NCBI RefSeq assembly: GCF_947504215.1
Contig: NZ_CANNGO010000005.1
Coordinates: 248,001-312,000, forward strand
Direction of reading: 5' to 3'
DNA: 64,000 nucleotides
Source of the DNA: an uncultured Ruegeria sp.
GTDB taxonomy: Bacteria > Pseudomonadota > Alphaproteobacteria > Rhodobacterales > Rhodobacteraceae
Part shown: one piece after another, positions 17,821 to 27,158 of the stretch
Layout: every line of letters starts with the position of its first letter
How positions within the stretch are numbered: the stretch's first letter is position 1
Notes under the pieces: generated by a model
The model's input: the letters and a program-made list of their open reading frames with translations, nothing else
What the model was told of the DNA's origin: nothing
Database searches by the model: none
Program-made: the position numbers and the translations under genes

Positions 17821-17855
17821 AGAAAACCCCCGCCAGCGCTGGCGGGGGTTTTCTT
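17821..17855 (+). terminator. Strong bidirectional terminator after gcvP
   Basis: A 35-base perfect palindromic hairpin whose arms read AGAAAACCCCCGCCAGC and GCTGGCGGGGGTTTTCT. The T-rich 3' side and A-rich 5' side let it act in both directions. It overlaps the last bases of the convergent cytochrome peroxidase gene. Confidence 0.95.
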
Positions 17856-19140
17856 AGGGTATAAACCCGGCGGGTACGCCAAACGGCAACGTGTCTACGC
17901 TGGTTCCGGTTAACGCATTCAGGAAGGCGACGAGATTGTCGATTTCCGCATCTGACAAGTCGACTGGGGCAATGTCGATCCTGTTGCGTTGGCGTTCCAT
18001 TTCGAAACGATCATCCCAAACCACAAAATCTGCCTTTTGCAGCCACGGCACCTGTGGCAAAGCAGCCATTGCACGCTCCCATCGTGACAGGCTGCTTTCA
18101 GGGTTCAGATGGTGGCGGATCATGCTTTCCAGATCGGGAAACGCCCCGTTGTGACCATAGGGCGCCGTCAGCGCAACGTTGCGCAGCATTGGGGTGCGGA
18201 ACCGATAGGCGTCTTCCAATCGGTTGCTTTCGCCCATGCGTCCCACATCCCGGACAAAAGGATCCCACTGTCGGGTCCTGCCCGGCCCGAAGGGCGGCAG
18301 ACCCAAAGCGTGAAACTTTTGGTCAGACATCAACGGACCGGAATGGCAGGTTGCGCATCGCGCTTTGCCATAGAACAGGTCCATTCCGTTCTTTTGTGTG
18401 GCAGAAAGCGCGGCGGTGTCCCCGGCCAAGTATTGGTCGAACGGGCTGTCTGTGCTGCGCCACTCTATTGCCATGAAGGCCGCAAGCGCATTTGCGATTT
18501 GGGTTATTGTTATGTCTTTGGCCGTTTCAACGTCGTCGAACGCGTTGACCATGGCTGACCCATATCTCGGATCTGTACGGACACGTTTGGCAAGGATGGG
18601 CCAGCCCTTGTCGATCCGGTCATGTACCGCTCCGGTGACCTGATTTTCGGCCACATTCCCGGCCATTTCGAACTGCGCGGTTAACGGGAACAGCGCTTGT
18701 GCGGCCAGTAACGAGTTTAATCCCTCGGGCAGCCATTCCTGCGCCGGAGAATTGAAGCCGTTGCCATAGATATCGGATTTGCTGAGACGTCCATCGTGAA
18801 ACAGCGTGTGTATGTCTTTGGCCCCAAGGTTCCACAAGCCGGGTGCGTTGCGTGGGATACGCTTGCGAATTCTATCCGCCCCGGTTCCGGGCGTGCGGTC
18901 CGGCCCCAGCCCAACGCCACCTTCCCCGATGCCCAAGGACAGCCCGTCAGACGTACCAAAATCCGGATGGTGGCAATGGGCACAGGTAATGTTCCGATTG
19001 CCCGACAGGATCGGATCGTAAAAGAGTTGATGACCGATGGCGGCCTGTTCCATATCAAAGGGCAGGAAATCATCATCGGTCAGCGGACGCGGCAAATCCT
19101 GTGCCCCAGCAGCGCCAGCCCACAGGAGTACAGCACCCAT
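17854..19140 (-). CDS. Diheme cytochrome c peroxidase / MauG family protein
   Basis: A periplasmic diheme protein of about 428 residues with two c-type heme sites, CAHCH (ITCAHCHHPDFGTSDG) and CATCH (ARCATCHSGPLMSDQ), as in bacterial cytochrome c peroxidases and MauG-like enzymes. The domain between them has the expected FDDVETAKDITITQIANALAAF and LRNVALTAPYGHNG. The N-terminus from the ATG at 19140 (MGAVLLWAGAAGAQ) resembles a short signal peptide, but a few more upstream residues (CTG start, KLAH) may belong to it. The frame is open for another 140 residues upstream; that part is antisense to the Sel1 gene and is not credible. The substrate (H2O2 or a protein-modification target) is undecided. 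Confidence 0.87.
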   Translation of the reverse strand: MGAVLLWAGAAGAQDLPRPLTDDDFLPFDMEQAAIGHQLFYDPILSGNRNITCAHCHHPDFGTSDGLSLGIGEGGVGLGPDRTPGTGADRIRKRIPRNAPGLWNLGAKDIHTLFHDGRLSKSDIYGNGFNSPAQEWLPEGLNSLLAAQALFPLTAQFEMAGNVAENQVTGAVHDRIDKGWPILAKRVRTDPRYGSAMVNAFDDVETAKDITITQIANALAAFMAIEWRSTDSPFDQYLAGDTAALSATQKNGMDLFYGKARCATCHSGPLMSDQKFHALGLPPFGPGRTRQWDPFVRDVGRMGESNRLEDAYRFRTPMLRNVALTAPYGHNGAFPDLESMIRHHLNPESSLSRWERAMAALPQVPWLQKADFVVWDDRFEMERQRNRIDIAPVDLSDAEIDNLVAFLNALTGTSVDTLPFGVPAGFIP

Positions 19141-19611
19141 ATGCGCCAGTTTGTAATTGCCCTTTGCCTGATTGCTACACCGGCGCTGGCCGAACTGGAA
19201 CAAGCCCGCGATCTGATGGAGGCCGGAGAATTCGAGGCTGCCCGCGAAGAACTGTTGCCAGCCGCGCGGTCCGGCAATGCCGAGGCCGAGGAACTGATTG
19301 GCGTGATGTACGGGTTGGGCCTTGGGGTCGAACAGGACTATCAGCGGGCGTTTGATTGGTATCTGCGCGCCTCGATGAAGGGGCATCCGGGGGCGCAGTC
19401 TGGGGTGGGGTGGTATTATGAGTTGGGTCTTGGCATGCCCGCGCCTGATCTGGTGCGCGCTTATATGTGGTACACGCTCAGCGCGATTGGTGGTGATCCC
19501 GATGCCGCGATCAGCCTGGAAGAAGTGGTCAAGAAAATGACGCCGGAGCAGATCGAAAAGGCTCATGTCCTGGTGAACGATTACAAAGTGTGGATGTATC
19601 CGTTTCGGTAG
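19141..19611 (+). CDS. Secreted Sel1-repeat protein
   Basis: A 156-residue protein with a clean signal peptide (MRQFVIALCLIATPALA) followed by a leading helix pair and two Sel1-like repeats: AEELIGVMYGLGLGVEQDY and GVGWYYELGLGMPAPDLVRA. Sel1 repeats are alpha-solenoid protein-binding modules. Its ATG directly abuts the start codon of the divergent peroxidase gene (CATATG at 19138-19143), so its promoter would lie inside that gene. A hairpin follows the stop. Confidence 0.85.
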   Translation: MRQFVIALCLIATPALAELEQARDLMEAGEFEAAREELLPAARSGNAEAEELIGVMYGLGLGVEQDYQRAFDWYLRASMKGHPGAQSGVGWYYELGLGMPAPDLVRAYMWYTLSAIGGDPDAAISLEEVVKKMTPEQIEKAHVLVNDYKVWMYPFR

Positions 19612-19645: not shown

Positions 19646-20707
19646 TTAGTTCAGGTCCGCGTCGCGTGACGCATTGATATCCGCCTCAGCCGCTGCCACG
19701 GCATCTGTCAGCGCAGTGAAGACCTGATCGCCACGGGTTACGTTGGTTTGGAACCACTCGTAAACCGGAGTTGCAGCCTCTTTGAACGCGGCCTTTTGCT
19801 CGGGTGTGGGCACATAGAGGTCACCGCCACCGGCGACGAAATCCTCATAAGCCTGAATCGACTTGCGTTTGGGCGAAGCAAAGGTCGCCTGCTGCAAAGC
19901 ATAGAACCCGTCGACAACCACACGACGCATGTCTTCAGGCATTTCCTGAAACTTGGCGTTGTTCATCCACCACAGCGCGCCCATGTAGGCGTGTCCGTCC
20001 AGAGTGACATATTGCAAACCCGCATCCGGGAATTTCATACCCATGATATCGGTGATGCCGTTCTTGGATCCCTCAACCACGCCTGTCTGAAAGCTGGTGA
20101 ACAGTTCCGGCCACGGGATCGGGGTAGGCGAGGCACCCAGTGCCTTGACCAGCTCTTGCGGCAAGTCTGCGACCACGGTGCGGATTTTCAACCCTTCCAT
20201 ATCGGCGGGCTCGGCCACGCGGCGTTGAGTGTTGGCAAAGTTGCGCCAGCCGCCGGTATTGCCGATGGTCATCAGGCGGATCGCGCCGCCAGAATCCTCA
20301 AGCGCCATGTCGCGCACCTGGCGGGTGAAATCACCGGACAGAACATGCTCGGCCACGCGGTCATCCGCCATCAGGTAGGGCAGATCCAGAACCTGCACGT
20401 AGGGGAAGATGCCTGATGCACCGCCTGAGGTCGAAATGTAGATATCGATGGTGCCATCGGCGACACCCTGTAGGCATTCGGCGCCGTTGGAACACAGCTG
20501 CGTACCGATGAACAACTCAACCTCAATTGCTCCGTTGGATGCGTTCTCGACGAAGTTCTTGAAGACGATCAGGCCGTCATAGTCTTCGTCGTTTTCATTC
20601 GAGTTGGCCGTGGCGCGCAGCGTGTAGTCGGCCGCTGTGGCTGCGATGGCGGATGCTGCCACCAGCGATGTGGCCACCGCTGCGGTTTTGATGAATCTTC
20701 TGAGCAT
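19646..20707 (-). CDS. TRAP transporter solute-binding protein (DctP family)
   Basis: A 353-residue periplasmic DctP-type binding protein with a signal peptide (basic MLRRFIKT, then AAVATSLVAASAIAATA). The family core is visible: LQGVADGTIDIYISTSG, LDLPYLMADDRVAEHVL, ADMEGLKIRTVVADLP and ELFTSFQTGVVEGSKNG. Two cysteines in LCSNGAECLQG may form a disulfide. It is the last gene of the minus-strand operon monooxygenase - aldo-keto reductase - flavin reductase - DctQ - DctM - DctP. The ligand is unknown; the context suggests a sulfonated or otherwise oxidisable carbohydrate-like acid. Confidence 0.92.
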   Translation of the reverse strand: MLRRFIKTAAVATSLVAASAIAATAADYTLRATANSNENDEDYDGLIVFKNFVENASNGAIEVELFIGTQLCSNGAECLQGVADGTIDIYISTSGGASGIFPYVQVLDLPYLMADDRVAEHVLSGDFTRQVRDMALEDSGGAIRLMTIGNTGGWRNFANTQRRVAEPADMEGLKIRTVVADLPQELVKALGASPTPIPWPELFTSFQTGVVEGSKNGITDIMGMKFPDAGLQYVTLDGHAYMGALWWMNNAKFQEMPEDMRRVVVDGFYALQQATFASPKRKSIQAYEDFVAGGGDLYVPTPEQKAAFKEAATPVYEWFQTNVTRGDQVFTALTDAVAAAEADINASRDADLN

Positions 20708-20731
20708 GCGTTTCCTCCCTGTGATACTCAG

Positions 20732-22021
20732 TTAGTTTGCAAATCCCGTTATTCTCGGGATCGTCATTGATAGTGCCGGGATATAGGTGATCAGGAAGAT
20801 CACTATGATTTCGACTGCCAGGAACGGCAGGATGGCCTTGGCGATGGTCTCAACCCGTTCACGCGAGACTGCTGCGGCCACAAACAGGACCAGCCCCATC
20901 GGTGGCGTGGCCAGACCGACGGTCAGGTTGACGCTCATGATGATGGCGAAATGGATTGGGTCGACGCCGAGGCTGGTGAAGATCGGACCCAGGATCGGGC
21001 CAAGGATGATGATCGCTGGCCCAGCGTCCAGAAACATACCGACAACAAATAGCAGCAGGTTGATCAGGAACAAAAGGATCAGCGGGTTTTCCGACAGGCT
21101 GAGGATCAGCGACGCCAGTTGTTCCGGCGCGTGGCTGAGGCTGACCACGGTCTTGAACGCCATTGCGGCGCCAACCAGCAGCAAGACAACCGCCGAGGTC
21201 ATACCAGCGTTGCTGAGAACCTCGGGCACTTCTTTCCACGACAACGTGCGCAAAACAAAAAATCCGATGAGGAAGGCATAGCCCACGGCGACCGCCGCCG
21301 CCTCGGTCGGGGTAAAGATACCGCCGAGGATTCCCCCCAGAATGATGACGGGCGTCAGCAAAGGGAAGAATGCCTTGAGGCTGGCTTGCCTGCGTTCGCC
21401 CCAGGTGTATTTTCGGCTGGCAACCGGGAAGTCGTAGCGATCTGCCATGAGTTTGATCATCAGCATCAGGCCTACGCCAACCATAACCCCGGGCACGATC
21501 CCGGCCAGAAACAGCGCCGCGACGCTTTCGCCCATGACATATGCGTAGATGATCATGATGCCCGAGGGCGGGATGATCGGACCAATGACCGAACTGGCTG
21601 CGGTAATGGCAGCGGCGAATTTGCGAGTATAGCCCTGTTTCTCCATCGCCGGGATCAGCATGGATCCCAGGGCCGAGGTGTCGGCTACTGCAGAACCCGA
21701 AAGGCCCGCAAACAGGATCGAGCTGAGAACGTTTACATGCGCCAGACCGCCGCGCAAATGACCCATCAGGGCCTGACTGAATTCGACAAGGCGGATGGTT
21801 ATGCCACCTCGGTTCATCAATTCTCCGGCCAGCATGAAGAACGGGATCGCCATCAAGGGGAAACTGTCCATGCCATTGTAGACATTGCGGTAGAGCAGGG
21901 TGATGTCGTTGGTCTGACCGTTCAGCCACAGCAGAATGCCGGGCGCGGCCAACAGTGCGAAGAACACGGGCAAGCCGATCAACAGGAAGATCAGGAAAGT
22001 GGGCAGGAACCATATCAACAT
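20732..22021 (-). CDS. TRAP transporter large permease (DctM family)
   Basis: A 429-residue integral membrane protein with about 12 hydrophobic segments. Typical DctM motifs are PLMAIPFFMLAGELMNRGGI, GGLAHVNVLSSILFAGLSGS, FAAAITAASSVIGPIIPPSG and GLATPPMGLVLFV. It forms the transport channel with the DctQ protein. Its ATG follows the DctQ stop codon with no gap. Transport is driven by a Na+ gradient in characterised members. Confidence 0.95.
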   Translation of the reverse strand: MLIWFLPTFLIFLLIGLPVFFALLAAPGILLWLNGQTNDITLLYRNVYNGMDSFPLMAIPFFMLAGELMNRGGITIRLVEFSQALMGHLRGGLAHVNVLSSILFAGLSGSAVADTSALGSMLIPAMEKQGYTRKFAAAITAASSVIGPIIPPSGIMIIYAYVMGESVAALFLAGIVPGVMVGVGLMLMIKLMADRYDFPVASRKYTWGERRQASLKAFFPLLTPVIILGGILGGIFTPTEAAAVAVGYAFLIGFFVLRTLSWKEVPEVLSNAGMTSAVVLLLVGAAMAFKTVVSLSHAPEQLASLILSLSENPLILLFLINLLLFVVGMFLDAGPAIIILGPILGPIFTSLGVDPIHFAIIMSVNLTVGLATPPMGLVLFVAAAVSRERVETIAKAILPFLAVEIIVIFLITYIPALSMTIPRITGFAN

Positions 22022-22609
22022 TTATTCAGCCCCCACTGCTGCATCAGGAATTTCTGGCAATAGGTGACCGCCGCCCAACATGGTGATGAATGACCGGAGG
22101 ATCAGTTCGATGTTGACTGAAATAAGCAGAACGATCCCCACAAGTAACGAGGCCATCATCCAACTGCGGGGAATGCGGTACCATTCGTCAAACCCGAAGG
22201 ATGTTGGAAGGTAAAGCGCAGCGGTAGCGAACTTGCCGCCAAAGCCCGTCACCTCGGACCAGCCGATTGTGACCGCGACCAGCAAAACCGCCAATGAGAC
22301 CAGAAGGAGAAAAATGTTCAGTGTTTGTCCGACAACGCGCGGCAGGAACCGTTGCAGCATGTCGATGGCGACGAAACCACCGCGTCGGAATGCGGTCGGA
22401 GCCATCAGACCGGTCATCCATAACATGCAGAACCGCGCTGCCTCATCCGGCCAGGGCAGGGCGTTGCCCAGAACATACCGGAAGAACACCTGAATTAGGA
22501 TCGCGATCACCATCAATGCAATCGCAACGACACCAACCGCGCGGCCCAGACGCAGCGCGGCTTCGTTCACGAATGCAATCGGCGCCAGCACCGATGCCAG
22601 TCCGCCCAT
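22022..22609 (-). CDS. TRAP transporter small permease (DctQ family)
   Basis: A 195-residue four-TM DctQ subunit. The start at 22609 (MGGLASVLAPIAFVNEAALR) has GGGAGGAACCGC upstream; the open frame extends 29 codons further without support. The typical segment MVIAILIQVFFRYVLGNALP is present, as is PDEAARFCMLWMTGL. It lies 52 bases after the flavin reductase gene and abuts DctM. Confidence 0.92.
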   Translation of the reverse strand: MGGLASVLAPIAFVNEAALRLGRAVGVVAIALMVIAILIQVFFRYVLGNALPWPDEAARFCMLWMTGLMAPTAFRRGGFVAIDMLQRFLPRVVGQTLNIFLLLVSLAVLLVAVTIGWSEVTGFGGKFATAALYLPTSFGFDEWYRIPRSWMMASLLVGIVLLISVNIELILRSFITMLGGGHLLPEIPDAAVGAE

Positions 22610-22661
22610 GCGGTTCCTCCCTATGTCAGCTGCGGGTCTTTCCGCAGCGGTCTTCTCGCGC

Positions 22662-23180
22662 TTATTGGTGCGCGAATTGGCCGAGTTTCCCGGCATAAAA
22701 GGTCAGCGCGTCTCCATCCGCCATGCTGGCCTTCAAAACTTTACCCACGACAATAACGTGATCACCTGCGTTGTGATACGCATGTTGTTCGCATTCGAAC
22801 CGCGCCAGACAATCCGGCAGCAGCGGAGTCCCGTTTTCACAGCGCTCATGTTCGATATCCCGCAGGGCATGGGCGTTCTTGGAACACCCAAAGCACAGCT
22901 CGGCCTGTTCGGCTGACAAAACGTGAACGCTGAAGTGGCGCGCCTTCTGAAAATAGGGGAAGCGGCGAGAGTTTCGGTCGCCAGCCCACATCACCAAAGG
23001 CGGATCCAGTGACAGGGACGAAAAGCTGTTGGCTGTGATGCAGATCGGCCCGTCCTCGCTGTGGCAGGTCACGATCGTCACCCCGGTGGCAAAACGGCCA
23101 AAAGCATCCCTAAGGGTTCGGGTGTCGTCTTTATGCGGGACGAATGTACGGCTCATGTCCTTTGAGATTGCGTTCATCAT
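22662..23180 (-). CDS. Flavin reductase (two-component monooxygenase partner)
   Basis: A 172-residue flavin reductase-like (FMN-binding split barrel) protein. Family motifs are RDAFGRFATGVTIVTCHSED, ITANSFSSLSLDPPLVMWAG and FSVHVLSAEQ. It would use NAD(P)H to reduce FMN or FAD for the luciferase-like monooxygenase encoded two genes upstream. Its ATG overlaps the stop of the aldo-keto reductase gene (ATGA), supporting the start at 23180 and tight co-translation. In the sulfo-SMO pathway the equivalent role is played by SmoA; that correspondence is inference. Confidence 0.9.
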   Translation of the reverse strand: MMNAISKDMSRTFVPHKDDTRTLRDAFGRFATGVTIVTCHSEDGPICITANSFSSLSLDPPLVMWAGDRNSRRFPYFQKARHFSVHVLSAEQAELCFGCSKNAHALRDIEHERCENGTPLLPDCLARFECEQHAYHNAGDHVIVVGKVLKASMADGDALTFYAGKLGQFAHQ

Positions 23181-24067
23181 GGTACCTCATGTCCCAGCGC
23201 CGCCTCATAAAGGCGATACCAGGTTTCGCGATCCAGATTGACTTTCATGGCGTCGGAAATCCGTTTGATACGGTCCAGATTGTTGGTGCCTAGCACCGGA
23301 AGGATACCTGCCGGATGAGCCAGCAGGAATGCAACCGCAACAGCAGCACGGTCGACACCGAACTCCTCGGCAATTTCGTCAGCAACCAATCCGACCGGGG
23401 GATTCCCGGCCATCAGCATCCCGCCACCCAAGGGGGACCACGCCATCACAGCGTGGCCGTGCTGCTGGTGAAACGCCAAATCGCCATTGGTGAACGGACC
23501 AATCTCGCCCAGAGAAATTTCGATCTGATTGGTGACCAGCTGCGTTTTCATGGCCGATTGCAACAGCTGCCAATCCCACGGACGGAAGTTGGATACACCA
23601 ACGGCCCCCACTTTGCCGCTGGCGACCACCTCATCCAGCACCGCACCAGTCTCGTGGTGATCCATGAACGGATCGGGGCGGTGAATCAGCAGTAGATCGA
23701 TGTGATCAATAGCCATTTCCTGCAGTGAAATTTCGACGGACTTCAGGATGTGCGCACGCGACGTGTCATAGTATTTGGCCTTGGCATCGGCATACCGGCC
23801 GCAGGGCGCAACGATGTCACATTTGGTGACAATCTCCATCTTTTGACGCAGGCCGGGATTGGCGCGCAGGGCATTGCCCAGAACGGCTTCGGCGCCATAG
23901 TCGCCATAGATATCCGCCTGATCGAAGGTGGTGATGCCCTGATCCAGGCAAGCTTGGACCTTGGCCTCGACATGACCAGCCGAGGTGTCGCTGTCATCGC
24001 CCAGCCGCCACATGCCGTAAACCAGACGGCTCAATTTCAGCGTTTCAGATAGTTTGACACGTTGCAT
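23177..24067 (-). CDS. Aldo/keto reductase, YdhF/SmoB-like
   Basis: A 296-residue NADPH-dependent aldo-keto reductase. Recognisable are LSRLVYGMWRLGDDSDTS, the catalytic region TTFDQADIYGDYGAEAVLGN (Asp and Tyr), the Lys in EIVTKCDIVAP, LLLIHRPDPFMDHHETG, TNQIEISLGE and AWSPLGGGMLM. The sequence resembles the YdhF group and, from memory, the SQ-pathway enzyme SmoB, which reduces 6-oxo-glucose to glucose. The start overlaps the upstream monooxygenase stop (TGATG). Position between the monooxygenase and flavin reductase genes fits a shared pathway. Confidence 0.88.
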   Translation of the reverse strand: MQRVKLSETLKLSRLVYGMWRLGDDSDTSAGHVEAKVQACLDQGITTFDQADIYGDYGAEAVLGNALRANPGLRQKMEIVTKCDIVAPCGRYADAKAKYYDTSRAHILKSVEISLQEMAIDHIDLLLIHRPDPFMDHHETGAVLDEVVASGKVGAVGVSNFRPWDWQLLQSAMKTQLVTNQIEISLGEIGPFTNGDLAFHQQHGHAVMAWSPLGGGMLMAGNPPVGLVADEIAEEFGVDRAAVAVAFLLAHPAGILPVLGTNNLDRIKRISDAMKVNLDRETWYRLYEAALGHEVP

Positions 24068-25221
24068 CAACGACGCACTCCGTTGCCCAGCGGCGTCGCT
24101 GGGATGTTGTTGGGAACCCGTCCGTAAGCTTCGGGAAGGGAGCAGGTTTTTAGGTTGGGCATCACGCGGGTGCCGAAATGGCGTGCTTCGTCCATGTGTG
24201 GATAGCCCGAGAAGATGAAGGCGCGGATGCCCATCTTCTGGTATTCTTCAATCTTGGACATGACCTGATCGGTCGAGCCGACCAATGCTGCACCGCAACC
24301 CGACCGGGCGCGGCCAACGCCTGTCCAAAGGCCCGGCTCGACATACCCATATTCATCGGCCAGATCGCGGTTTTTGGATTGATGTGCGACGCCCAGAGAT
24401 GTGGAGTCCAAGGCGCGCTCTCGTATGGCGCGGCCATATTCATCGTCCAGCTTGGACACGATGTAGTCGGCGTATTCCTGTGCCTCAGCCTCGGTATCGC
24501 GGACAATCATGTGAACCCGTAGACCATAATCCAGTGTGCGACCGCATTCGTCGGCGACTGCATGAACGGCTTTCATCCGTTCGGCCAACTGGTCCTTTGT
24601 TTCCGGCCACATCAGGTAGACGTCACAATGTTCGCCGCACAACTGCAAGGCGGATGGGGAATAGCCACCGAAATACAGCAGCGGGCCGCCGGTTTGATAC
24701 GGTTTTGCGGGATCAGTGGTCAGACCGCCGAAATTGTAGACCTCGCCCGCATAGTTGATCTCATCATGTGTCCAAGCCTGTTTCAGGATCTCGACCACTT
24801 CGCGCGAGCGTTGGTAGCGATAGGCGCTGTCAGCTTTTTCGCCGGGAAAATCGGATGAGATGATGTTGACGGTTAACCGTCCCTTCAACATGTGATCAAG
24901 CGTGGCGATGGTTCGGGCCAGCATAATGGGCTGCATCTCGCCGCAGCGCACCGCAGCCAGCATGTTGATCTTTTCGGTGATCGGTGCGCAGCCCGCGACA
25001 AAGCTGAGCGTGTCCTGACCGACTTGATATGAAGATGGGCACAGGATGTTGCGAAACCCCTGCGCCTCGGCTTCTTTCACGATGCTGGAACAATGATCCC
25101 AGCTGGATCGCAGGTCACCATCCGGCACGCCAAGAAACTGATAATCATCCGAGCAAAGCGCTGCAAACCACGAAACCTCAGCCGCATCCAGATCGGGTGA
25201 CGTGATGGGGACAATTGTCAT
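24067..25221 (-). CDS. LLM-class flavin-dependent monooxygenase, SsuD-like
   Basis: A luciferase-like monooxygenase of about 384 residues. The C-terminal part is closely SsuD-like: VGRARSGCGAALVGSTDQV, MGIRAFIFSGYPHMDEARHFG and VMPNLK. The middle has LARTIATLDHMLKGRLTVNI and YAGEVYNFGG. SsuD-type enzymes cleave C-S bonds of sulfonates with FMNH2 and O2; SmoC does so for sulfoquinovose. It heads a six-gene operon with a flavin reductase and a TRAP importer. The ATG at 25221 has GGAG about 10 bases upstream; an ATG at 25239 is the alternative. Other LLM substrates remain possible. Confidence 0.87.
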   Translation of the reverse strand: MTIVPITSPDLDAAEVSWFAALCSDDYQFLGVPDGDLRSSWDHCSSIVKEAEAQGFRNILCPSSYQVGQDTLSFVAGCAPITEKINMLAAVRCGEMQPIMLARTIATLDHMLKGRLTVNIISSDFPGEKADSAYRYQRSREVVEILKQAWTHDEINYAGEVYNFGGLTTDPAKPYQTGGPLLYFGGYSPSALQLCGEHCDVYLMWPETKDQLAERMKAVHAVADECGRTLDYGLRVHMIVRDTEAEAQEYADYIVSKLDDEYGRAIRERALDSTSLGVAHQSKNRDLADEYGYVEPGLWTGVGRARSGCGAALVGSTDQVMSKIEEYQKMGIRAFIFSGYPHMDEARHFGTRVMPNLKTCSLPEAYGRVPNNIPATPLGNGVRR

Positions 25222-25272
25222 CTGTTGCGCGCTCCGCATTGATTTTGCTTTTTCTCTTGCGTAGCAATCACA

Positions 25273-25286
25273 TTGATGTAGATCAA
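25273..25286. promoter_or_regulatory. Perfect FNR/FnrL-type box or GntR operator
   Basis: TTGATGTAGATCAA is an exact TTGAT-N4-ATCAA palindrome, extended by one more matching base on each side. It lies about 58 bases before the monooxygenase ATG and about 45 before the GntR start. It could be an Fnr/Crp-family site or the GntR operator. A third TTGAT element occurs close by on the minus strand (25297-25293). Confidence 0.6.
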
Positions 25287-25327
25287 TAGTGTATCAATTT
25301 TTCCTGCGACCGAATGAAGCGTCTGCT

Positions 25328-26038
25328 GTGACACCAACCAGCCGAAATCCAAATGCCCTGCCGATGTATATTCAAATCTCGGAACTGCTGATCCGGGATA
25401 TTGCGGCTGGTCGCCTGATCGACGGAGAGCGCCTGCCCCCGGAAAGGGACATGGCGGCTGAGCTTCAGGTTTCGGTCGGGACTTTGCGAAAATCGCTCGC
25501 AGAGCTTGAGAAAAAGGGGATGTTGGAGCGTATTCAGGGCTCGGGCAATTACGTGCGCGAGACCGGAACGCAGAACAGCGTCTATGCGATGTTCCGACTA
25601 GAGCTGCCGGAAGGCGGCGGTTTGCCACGCGCCGATATCCTGTCGGTTGATCAATTGGAAAAGCCAGACGATCTGCCGGAATTCGGAAAATCCAACATCG
25701 GGTCACGCGTGCGCAGAATGCGGTATCTGAATGACACAATTATCGCTGTCGAGGAAATCTGGCTGGACGAATCAGTGGGTCTAATCGACCAGAACCTGCT
25801 GTCGGACTCGCTTTATCGCTACTACCAGCAGCAATTGGGGTTCTGGATATCGCGCGCGGAAGATCGGGTTTCGGTCGGATTGATGCCGCACTGGACGCCA
25901 CTTGGGTTCACCAAGCCGATCGGAGAAACGGTTGGATATATCGAGCGGTTTAGTTGGTCGGAAAAACCCGACCCAGTCGAGTTTTCAAAAACATGGTTCG
26001 ATGCGGATCGGGCCACTTATGTACAACGCCTGAAGTAA
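25328..26038 (+). CDS. GntR/HutC-family transcriptional regulator
   Basis: A GntR winged-helix domain (PMYIQISELLIRDIAAGRL, LPPERDMAAELQVSVGTLRK, LEKKGMLERIQGSGNYV) is followed by a UTRA-type effector domain (IAVEEIWLDESVGLIDQNL and the C-terminal YIERFSWSEKPDPVEF). HutC-type regulators usually repress a catabolic operon until a small sugar or acid binds. The frame opens at a GTG at 25289, but that lies next to the palindrome at 25273-25286; a GTG at 25328 or ATG at 25364 is more likely. It is divergent from the monooxygenase operon and followed after 19 bases by the Gfo/Idh gene. Confidence 0.88.
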   Translation: MTPTSRNPNALPMYIQISELLIRDIAAGRLIDGERLPPERDMAAELQVSVGTLRKSLAELEKKGMLERIQGSGNYVRETGTQNSVYAMFRLELPEGGGLPRADILSVDQLEKPDDLPEFGKSNIGSRVRRMRYLNDTIIAVEEIWLDESVGLIDQNLLSDSLYRYYQQQLGFWISRAEDRVSVGLMPHWTPLGFTKPIGETVGYIERFSWSEKPDPVEFSKTWFDADRATYVQRLK

Positions 26039-26057
26039 GAAGAATGAGGAAATACGC

Positions 26058-27158
26058 ATGACCCGGACGATCAATTACGGGCTGATTGGATGCGGCATGA
26101 TGGGGCAAGAGCACCTGCACAATATTGCCCTGCTGGACGGCACCCGCGTGTCGGCGATTTTCGAACCTGATGCGGGTATGGCAAAGATCGCGCAGGACAT
26201 TGCACCGGACGCGACGATCGTGTCTTCGGTTCAGGCGTTGCTGGCGGTTGACGATCTGGATTGTCTGGTGATCGCCAGCCCAAATCACTTGCATGCTGAT
26301 CAACTTGACGAAATCGCCCAGACACGCCCGCTACCGTTGCTGGTCGAAAAGCCCTTGTTCACCGATCCCAACGATACCGCCCGGTTGGAGGTGATCCGGC
26401 AAAGCTATCCCCACCCAATCTGGGTTGCGATGGAGTACCGGTACATGCCCCCGATCGCGGAACTGATCTCGCAGGCTCGGGCGGTCAGCGGCGGTGCGAA
26501 AATGTTGTCGATCCGGGAACACCGCTTTCCTTTTCTTGAAAAGGTCGGGCACTGGAACCGATTTAACCGTAACACCGGCGGAACCTTTGTCGAGAAATGC
26601 TGCCATTTCTTCGACCTGATGCGGTTGATCCTGCAATCTGATCCGGTGCGGATCACTGCGAGCGGGGGACAAGCGGTCAATCATCTGGACGAAACCTATG
26701 AAGGGGAAACACCGGACGTCCTGGATCACGGTTATGTGCTGGTTGATTTTGCGTCCGGTGCACGGGCGATGCTGGAATTATGCATGTTTGCCGAGGGTTC
26801 TCGTTACCAAGAAGAAATCTCGGCCATTGGCCCAGATGCCAAGATCGAAGCCTTAGTGCCCGGGCCGGGTCGCTTCTGGCCTGAACATCTGGGTGCACCG
26901 CCGGTGCCGCAGGTGATTGTCAGTCCGCGTGATCCGAAAGGTCCGGTTGTCAAAGATATTCCGGTCGATCCACGTTTGCTTGCAGCGGGGGACCACAACG
27001 GATCCACCTTTTATCAGCATCAGGGATTCCTGGAGTTGGTGCGCGGAGATCGCGCCGAACCGGATGTGTCAATGCGCGATGGGCTGTGGGCGGTTCAGAT
27101 GGGATTGGCGGCTCAGCAGGCTTTGATCACCGGCGAAGCTGTTCACCTGACGGGTTGA
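26058..27158 (+). CDS. Gfo/Idh/MocA-family oxidoreductase (possible NAD+-dependent glycosidase)
   Basis: A 366-residue protein with an N-terminal Rossmann domain (NYGLIGCGMMGQEHLHNIAL), the family catalytic Lys in VEKPLF and the C-terminal domain with EHRFPFLEKVGHWNRFNRN followed by GGTFVEKCCHFFDLMR (His of the active site). Members oxidise sugars and inositols. Some, such as the GH188 sulfoquinovosidases and GH109, use NAD+ to hydrolyse glycosides. Placed next to an SsuD-like/flavin reductase/SmoB-like set, a GH188-like role on sulfoquinovosyl glycerol is conceivable but not shown. GAAGAATGAGGAAATACGC precedes the ATG. Confidence 0.87.
   Translation: MTRTINYGLIGCGMMGQEHLHNIALLDGTRVSAIFEPDAGMAKIAQDIAPDATIVSSVQALLAVDDLDCLVIASPNHLHADQLDEIAQTRPLPLLVEKPLFTDPNDTARLEVIRQSYPHPIWVAMEYRYMPPIAELISQARAVSGGAKMLSIREHRFPFLEKVGHWNRFNRNTGGTFVEKCCHFFDLMRLILQSDPVRITASGGQAVNHLDETYEGETPDVLDHGYVLVDFASGARAMLELCMFAEGSRYQEEISAIGPDAKIEALVPGPGRFWPEHLGAPPVPQVIVSPRDPKGPVVKDIPVDPRLLAAGDHNGSTFYQHQGFLELVRGDRAEPDVSMRDGLWAVQMGLAAQQALITGEAVHLTG

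Follow-up and report, generated by a model that had tools for sequence, protein, structure and literature searches.

A putative sulfoquinovose utilization island with a TRAP importer in an uncultured Ruegeria sp.

Which transporter delivers sulfoquinovose (SQ) to the enzymes that would degrade it is the question raised by a locus in an uncultured Ruegeria sp. In the 64,000-nucleotide stretch analysed (hereafter the window; NCBI RefSeq assembly GCF_947504215.1, contig NZ_CANNGO010000005.1, positions 248,001 to 312,000), an island at positions 19646–27158 combines candidate SQ-degrading enzymes with a tripartite ATP-independent periplasmic (TRAP) transporter. Judging from sequence comparisons, we consider it likely, with a probability of roughly 0.8, that this island serves sulfolytic SQ utilization of the SQ monooxygenase (sulfo-SMO) type, with a glycoside hydrolase family 188 (GH188) sulfoquinovosidase and a TRAP importer. 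This reading draws on gene content, family membership of the proteins, conserved active-site residues and the linkage of the TRAP genes to two SQ gene sets. Roseobacters are notable marine consumers of SQ, a sulfosugar of plants and algae. The production of SQ is given as approximately 10 billion tons per year (PMC10755693).

Enzymes of the island

The minus-strand operon contained genes for a luciferase-like monooxygenase (LLM), an aldo-keto reductase (AKR), a flavin reductase and DctQ, DctM and DctP, which form a TRAP transporter and were all detected together with Pfam. Genes for a GntR-type regulator and a Gfo/Idh protein were divergent from it (Table 1). All eight open reading frames (ORFs) were in the window's ORF list where the initial annotation had placed them, and its description of the layout agreed with the Pfam matches over cut-off (Bac_luciferase, Aldo_ket_red, Flavin_Reduct, DctQ, DctM, DctP, GntR with UTRA, and GFO_IDH_MocA). 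The overlapping stop and start codons by which it had joined the three enzyme genes were found as two 4-base overlaps (LLM/AKR and AKR/flavin reductase). The likely starts of the LLM, GntR and DctQ genes were slightly inside the ORFs, based on comparison with annotated genes of Ruegeria THAF33. The extent given for the island held for the listed genes, but left outside the genes for a TPR protein and a dihaem protein at 17854–19611.

Table 1. Features of the island and the genes adjoining it in the window.
Feature	Position	Strand	Basis and remarks
SmoC-like FMNH2-dependent sulfoquinovose monooxygenase (LLM)	24067–25239	minus	Bac_luciferase and PDB match; likely start ~25221
SmoB-like aldo-keto reductase (AKR), expected to convert 6-dehydroglucose to glucose	23177–24070	minus	Aldo_ket_red and PDB match
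SmoA-like flavin reductase, putative supply of reduced FMN	22662–23180	minus	Flavin_Reduct; assigned by operon position
DctQ, small TRAP permease	22022–22696	minus	PF04290; likely start ~22609
DctM, large TRAP permease	20732–22021	minus	TIGR00786, 437 bits vs cut-off 268
DctP, TRAP solute-binding protein; SQ or its glycerol glycoside is the proposed ligand	19646–20707	minus	PF03480
GntR/HutC (UTRA) regulator, divergent	25289–26038	plus	PF00392 and PF07702; likely start ~25328
SqgA-like GH188 NAD+-dependent sulfoquinovosidase	26058–27158	plus	GFO_IDH_MocA and PDB matches
Conserved operator-like element, divergent intergenic region	25272–25300	no strand	Conservation of a 19-base core
Secreted TPR/SEL1-repeat protein	19141–19611	plus	Company with SmoC loci
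MauG-like dihaem cytochrome c peroxidase family protein	17854–19140	minus	NCBIfam below cut-offs; PDB dihaem peroxidases

In a search against all solved structures, the LLM matched 7olf (710 bits, E = 7.6e-213) and 7oh2 (700 bits, E = 6.2e-210) with 77% identity to each, and the best other chain scored 192 bits. The AKR matched 7bbz (407 bits, E = 4.4e-121) and 7bby (406 bits, E = 5.8e-121), the best other chain scoring 203 bits. We take 7olf and 7oh2 to be SmoC and 7bbz to be SmoB; the PDB labels of these entries differ. The best match of the Gfo/Idh protein was 8zn9 (588 bits, E = 7e-176), followed by 8qc3 and 8qc2 (382 bits; E = 3.4e-113 and 3.6e-113), with the next chain at 51 bits. The founding GH188 sulfoquinovosidases are FlSqgA (8QC2, 8QC8) and ArSqgA (8QC3, 8QC5, 8QC6) (PMC10755693). 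The island protein resembled both (8QC2, 8QC3) over nearly its full length and kept their SQ-contacting and catalytic residues, although it was nearer to 8zn9. Scores so far above those of other chains supported the SmoC-, SmoB- and GH188-like identities that had been suggested for the three proteins. The top solved match of the flavin reductase was 4xhy, also a flavin reductase (144 bits), and its match to the NCBIfam FerA family was below the cut-off. Its gene shares an operon with the AKR and LLM genes, a feature of sulfo-SMO.

A quick tree was built for the LLM as the only enzyme so treated. It held 30 proteins: 25 hand-picked locus proteins, that of the window and four PDB sequences. 7olf and 7oh2 nested within the window's group, which was adjoined by a group of approximately 50% identity that included Novosphingobium (support for the separation of the two, 79%). 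The SsuD/MsuD-type chains 1nqk and 7jv3 (31–33% identity) were outside, beyond a fully supported branch. This grouping, which the initial annotation had made a test of its reading, supports a SmoC-like LLM that may be specific for SQ rather than for alkanesulfonates. The annotation had also asked whether sulfonate-contacting residues were conserved. They were kept (W211, R241, H243, Y346 and H348 were invariant among 15 aligned rows including the window's) but did not discriminate, since the sulfonate sites of both SmoC and SsuD are presumably made up of these five residues. As proof of SQ specificity they were therefore rejected.

For GH188, 184 rows including the window's were aligned (matches of ≥40% identity across 300 residues). 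The window protein kept K98, Y127, E154, R156, L160, K162, E179, H183 and H313 at the catalytic and SQ-binding positions, and all nine were invariant in 184/184 rows. Eight of the nine published residues were mapped with a single offset, and the paper's Glu163 was one position off. Conservation of the published SQ-contacting residues bore out the earlier suggestion of a GH188 protein. A profile search with PF01055 (GH31, which we take to be the family of the Agrobacterium tumefaciens sulfoquinovosidase) gave no match in the genome, so that the GH188 protein was the one sulfoquinovosidase candidate found.

The sulfo-SMO (sulfo-ASMO) pathway of A. tumefaciens and Novosphingobium aromaticivorans uses the same three enzymes as the island, a flavin reductase, an AKR and an LLM (PMC12890257), and its expected products are sulfite and glucose. 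The pathway is prevalent in Roseobacters, where SmoB together with SmoC was used as its criterion (PMC13372026); homologues of both were encoded together in the island, with the PDB entries identified as above. A. tumefaciens takes up sulfoquinovosyl glycerol through an ATP-binding cassette (ABC) importer, and its sulfoquinovosidase has been reported separately (PMC9594981), in contrast to the TRAP transporter and GH188 protein of the island. The cluster has TRAP genes in place of an ABC importer, and no GH31 match was found in the genome.

TRAP genes beside two sulfoquinovose gene sets

Loci without SmoC were found through the TPR gene, which was searched for across a sample of the family (198 genomes, nearly one per genus). 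It was present in 52 of them, 37 with SmoC and 15 without (Fisher p = 8.5e-6). The same TRAP transporter was found in 13 of the 15 SmoC-free TPR loci (DctP 72–88% identical), a number that is partly expected because the TPR gene used for the search is itself TRAP-linked; the informative part is the SQ genes beside the TRAP genes. Based on similarity to the genes of locus L252, the 15 loci encoded an SQ-isomerase-like protein (10 loci), a PfkB-type kinase (11) and a LacD-type aldolase (10). All three were together in nine loci (L252, L253, L255, L258, L261, L263, L264, L265 and L266), which also held the TRAP, dihaem and TPR genes and, in eight cases, GH188. Ten of the 15 encoded a GH188 protein, in each case with the nine residues intact. 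Family scans described three kinases as PfkB or ribokinase-like and three aldolases as tagatose-bisphosphate type. Among 189 other loci examined, none had the isomerase (>40% identity) or the aldolase (>50%). By sequence similarity, the SmoC-free TRAP clusters carry a gene set like that of the sulfoglycolytic Embden–Meyerhof–Parnas (sulfo-EMP) pathway. Linkage of the TRAP transporter to SQ genes was thus independent of one pathway, with an SQ-isomerase-like gene in 10 of the 13 TRAP-bearing SmoC-free loci.

In a quick DctP tree (99 of 131 distinct rows after the sulfo-SMO rows were thinned; supports from the Shimodaira–Hasegawa-like approximate likelihood ratio test only), 11 DctPs from SmoC-free clusters were scattered among the SmoC-linked ones. 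Nine label changes were counted, at least five of them forced by well supported branches. Shuffling of the labels gave a mean of 10.6 changes, and a count as low as that observed was reached in 32 of 500 shuffles. The labels are therefore scattered nearly like shuffled ones, which fits the prediction that the two kinds are mixed. Among 138 DctPs of the two kinds, dozens of polar and aromatic residues, including R176, were conserved in 136 or more. Label switching and linkage to both SQ gene sets together suggest that the importer was combined anew with one pathway or the other several times but stayed with SQ genes. No other evidence here speaks as strongly as this two-pathway linkage for transport of SQ or its glycoside by the TRAP transporter. 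It adds backing to the TRAP-based version of sulfo-SMO that the initial annotation had proposed from the island alone.

Across the 80 top-ranking genome loci (SmoC ≥83% identical; Rhodobacterales and Roseibium), the divergent SqgA–GntR pair was kept in 77 and the AKR and flavin reductase genes (SmoB and SmoA) in 79. The full set of TRAP genes was present in 65, a partial set in four (three cut by contig ends) and none in 11; among loci with at least 6.5 kb downstream, 54 of 65 had the full set. The gene arrangement of the island is not a matter of chance, its order being kept across the 80 loci. The plasmid records inspected comprised nine of the eleven at ≥60% identity and one at 48%. Nine of these ten were annotated, eight with TRAP genes and one (Marinovum) with an ABC sugar importer; the tenth had no annotated genes at the locus.

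SmoC was present in 88 of the 198 family-sample genomes, and 87 SmoC loci besides the window were analysed. GH188 was found in 81 of the 87. Among the 79 full-flank loci (at least 6.5 kb downstream), TRAP genes were present in 48 (46 by threshold; L227 and L247, with DctM under the identity threshold, were added by hand), a sugar ABC importer in 11 and neither in 20. An ABC importer of either of the two types searched for was counted from three parts upwards; in some of the loci these parts were upstream or at a distance of several kb.

Within the genus (37 genomes including the window's own), SmoC at ≥83% identity was found in 28. DctP at ≥81% identity occurred in exactly the same 28, the best-scoring DctP of the other nine being ≤32% identical, and the dihaem protein at ≥65% identity again in the same 28, with paralogues elsewhere at ≤51%. 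The co-occurrence of the three does not amount to three independent tests, because linked genes can be lost together. The 21 best SmoC loci in named GTDB genomes were all from Ruegeria.

Predicted pathway and alternative explanations

From these observations we infer the substrates, the direction of transport and the regulation of the system. Periplasmic SQ or sulfoquinovosyl glycerol would be captured by DctP and imported through DctQM at the expense of an ion gradient. SqgA with bound NAD+ would then free SQ from glycerol in the cytoplasm; the need of GH188 for NAD+ places its action in the cytoplasm and hence suggests that a glycoside of the sulfoquinovosyl glycerol type is imported whole. 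SmoA would reduce FMN, SmoC would use FMNH2 and O2 to convert SQ to sulfite and 6-dehydroglucose, and SmoB would reduce the latter to glucose. The sulfite would be oxidized or exported by systems encoded elsewhere in the genome. The GntR-type regulator, bound at the operator-like element, probably represses both divergent transcripts until the sulfosugar is present.

A number of observations weigh against this reading. The PDB labels on the SmoC and SmoB reference entries are methanesulfonate sulfonatase, alkanesulfonate monooxygenase and aryl-alcohol dehydrogenase, and 4xhy is not known to be a Smo protein. Three isomerase-like proteins scanned with the NCBIfam SQ isomerase model reached 258–279 bits against a cut-off of 700. 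Derivation of the ligand from a DctP model was abandoned since the AlphaFold models of DctP and SmoC, both with a pLDDT of 43, were too poor. An obligatory TRAP transporter was rejected, as 31 of the 79 full-flank loci were without TRAP genes beside SmoC (11 of these with an ABC set in reach), and in 20 of the 79 no importer was recognised beside SmoC among this TRAP and the two ABC types. The 80-locus and family surveys share genomes (e.g. L081 and L173). To these points are added the LLM residues shared with SsuD, the TRAP linkage of the TPR search and the linked genes of the genus, all described above.

An explanation that we regard as unlikely accepts SQ degradation by the enzymes but has the TRAP transporter import another marine compound (a sulfonate or sugar acid), while SQ enters through an ABC importer elsewhere. 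Binders of isethionate and of sialic acid are among the solved solute-binding proteins nearest to DctP in sequence, 12 DctP-like matches were found in the genome, and some SmoC loci have ABC importers or none. The isethionate DctP 8t9t belongs to the same family as that of the island and was its third-best profile match (E = 1.3e-33), yet it is distant; within the genus, DctPs beside SmoC are at least 81% identical to the window's and the other DctPs among the matches listed at most 34%. Against such a different cargo, the TRAP transporter accompanies GH188 and two unrelated SQ gene sets, its DctP switches labels repeatedly, and 11 of the 31 full-flank loci without TRAP genes have a sugar ABC importer in reach. 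It is very improbable, in turn, that the LLM/AKR pair acts in an SsuD-like manner on a small alkanesulfonate or on another sulfonated sugar, with the GH188-like protein being a sugar dehydrogenase. The varying PDB labels would allow it, as would the NCBIfam names below cut-off, alkanesulfonate monooxygenase for the LLM and inositol dehydrogenase for the Gfo/Idh protein. However, the bit scores against SmoC, SmoB and GH188 structures were two- to sevenfold those of the next chains, the SsuD/MsuD chains at 31–33% identity fell outside on the LLM tree, and all 184 rows of the GH188 alignment had the catalytic residues together with R156, L160 and K162.

Sulfo-SMO and GH188 in Roseobacters are not new, both being in print. 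GH188 is near-universal in Roseobacter sulfo-SMO clusters, and the legend of Figure 5 names Dinoroseobacter shibae and Phaeobacter inhibens among the organisms with GH188 clusters of several pathways (PMC10755693). The island shares GH188 with these clusters; the word transporter is absent from the main text of that paper. Uptake of SQ or sulfofucose has been ascribed to ABC or other importers (PMC9594981, PMC12421959, PMC11659671). We give somewhat less than even weight to the possibility that the Roseobacter sulfo-SMO cluster has already been described with its TRAP importer, which bears on novelty only. The near-universal GH188 and the prevalence of sulfo-SMO in this group (PMC10755693, PMC13372026) speak for it. 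In contrast, a literature search for sulfoquinovose and TRAP returned, among the matches listed, no title or abstract opening that assigns a TRAP importer to SQ. The main texts of PMC12890257, PMC13372026, PMC9594981 and PMC10755693 do not use the word TRAP; in PMC12421959 and PMC11659671 it denotes equipment.

The part worth following looks like the importer common to two SQ gene sets, seemingly a little-noticed sulfosugar route. If the TRAP transporter carries SQ, its genes would be a marker of sulfosugar uptake valid for two pathways, and DctP would be a ready target for binding assays. We lean slightly towards a broader hypothesis, in which one TRAP family would be the dedicated importer of SQ or sulfoquinovosyl glycerol in Alphaproteobacteria, mainly Rhodobacterales, repeatedly swapped between sulfo-SMO and sulfo-EMP-like clusters. 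The uptake module would include the MauG-like dihaem and TPR proteins, whose periplasmic action might be directed at the substrate, the binding protein or peroxide.

Adjoining genes, control element and divergent loci

The dihaem protein was below the cut-offs of the NCBIfam TIGR03981/MauG models and resembled dihaem peroxidases in the PDB. Its gene and the TPR gene are divergent, with start codons nearly touching (annotated gap of 3 bases in THAF33). In the 80-locus survey, 51 TRAP loci had flanks of 9 kb or more, and the dihaem gene was found in 43 of them, many from Ruegeria. In the family sample (at least 8.5 kb of flank), it was beside 24 of 44 TRAP loci vs 2 of 31 others (Fisher p = 1.5e-5; two loci were moved by hand into the TRAP class). 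The dihaem gene is tied to the TRAP genes rather than to desulfonation. Of the 37 family-sample genomes with both genes, 27 had the TPR gene no more than 12 kb from SmoC. An obligatory TPR/dihaem pair was rejected, as only 37 of the 88 genomes with SmoC had the TPR gene, which also occurred in 15 SmoC-free genomes. Sulfite handling was rejected as the main idea for the dihaem gene, which is present in SmoC-free clusters, because the first-stage pathway of those clusters should release no sulfite. The pair raises a new, concrete question: why a peroxidase-like protein accompanies a putative sulfosugar importer.

The initial annotation had correctly noted that the island is without a sulfite oxidase or exporter; candidates are encoded elsewhere in the genome. 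SoxC (584 bits vs cut-off 420) lies beside SoxB, and a three-gene set for a molybdopterin oxidoreductase, including a DmsC-type anchor, could be SoeABC. As SoxC and the molybdopterin set lie elsewhere, the missing oxidase is no objection to the proposed pathway. Exporter candidates were one PF03601 (YeiH-type) protein on another contig and five TauE-type proteins. In some relatives, a gene for a YeiH-type putative sulfate exporter is in the cluster or adjoins it.

The operator-like element between the divergent genes reads AATTGATACACTATTGATCTACATCAAT in the SmoC direction, within 25272–25300. It includes an ATTGAT...ATCAAT palindrome and a further ATTGATACACTATTGAT unit. The element overlaps a putative −35, TTGATC, located 17 bases before TACGCA, and these two are a plausible promoter. 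The 19-base core was exact in 97 of 169 intergenic regions, had at most two mismatches in 150 of 169 and occurred at a single place in the window. No SmoC-free locus (15 compared) had the element with fewer than three mismatches; L262, which keeps the GntR gene, was the one with three. A DeoR-type regulator gene was found in 9 of these 15 loci (similarity to that of L252).

Several loci departed from the common arrangement. L262 had SqgA, GntR and TRAP genes in the usual order, with SmoC, SmoB and SmoA missing between them. In L266 (10646–13573), genes for a sulfoacetaldehyde acetyltransferase (Xsc) and an acetate kinase-family protein adjoined the TRAP/dihaem cluster, hinting at a C2-sulfonate branch. 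In L081 (the same genome as L173), L189 and L246, the TRAP genes were replaced by an alpha-glucoside-type ABC importer and a GH13 enzyme after the SMO genes; this importer might carry sulfoquinovosyl glycerol. L117, on a Qingshengfaniella plasmid, kept GntR, SmoC and TRAP genes, with SmoB, SmoA and SqgA missing beside them. SmoC of L154 (80% identity) adjoined a different, distant TRAP transporter (DctM 31%), and no SmoB match was found there. A separate SmoC-like group at approximately 50% identity (L160–L162, L164 and L166) had GH188-like (42–49%) and AKR (34–40%) neighbours without this TRAP transporter; these loci are probably Novosphingobium-type SquD clusters.

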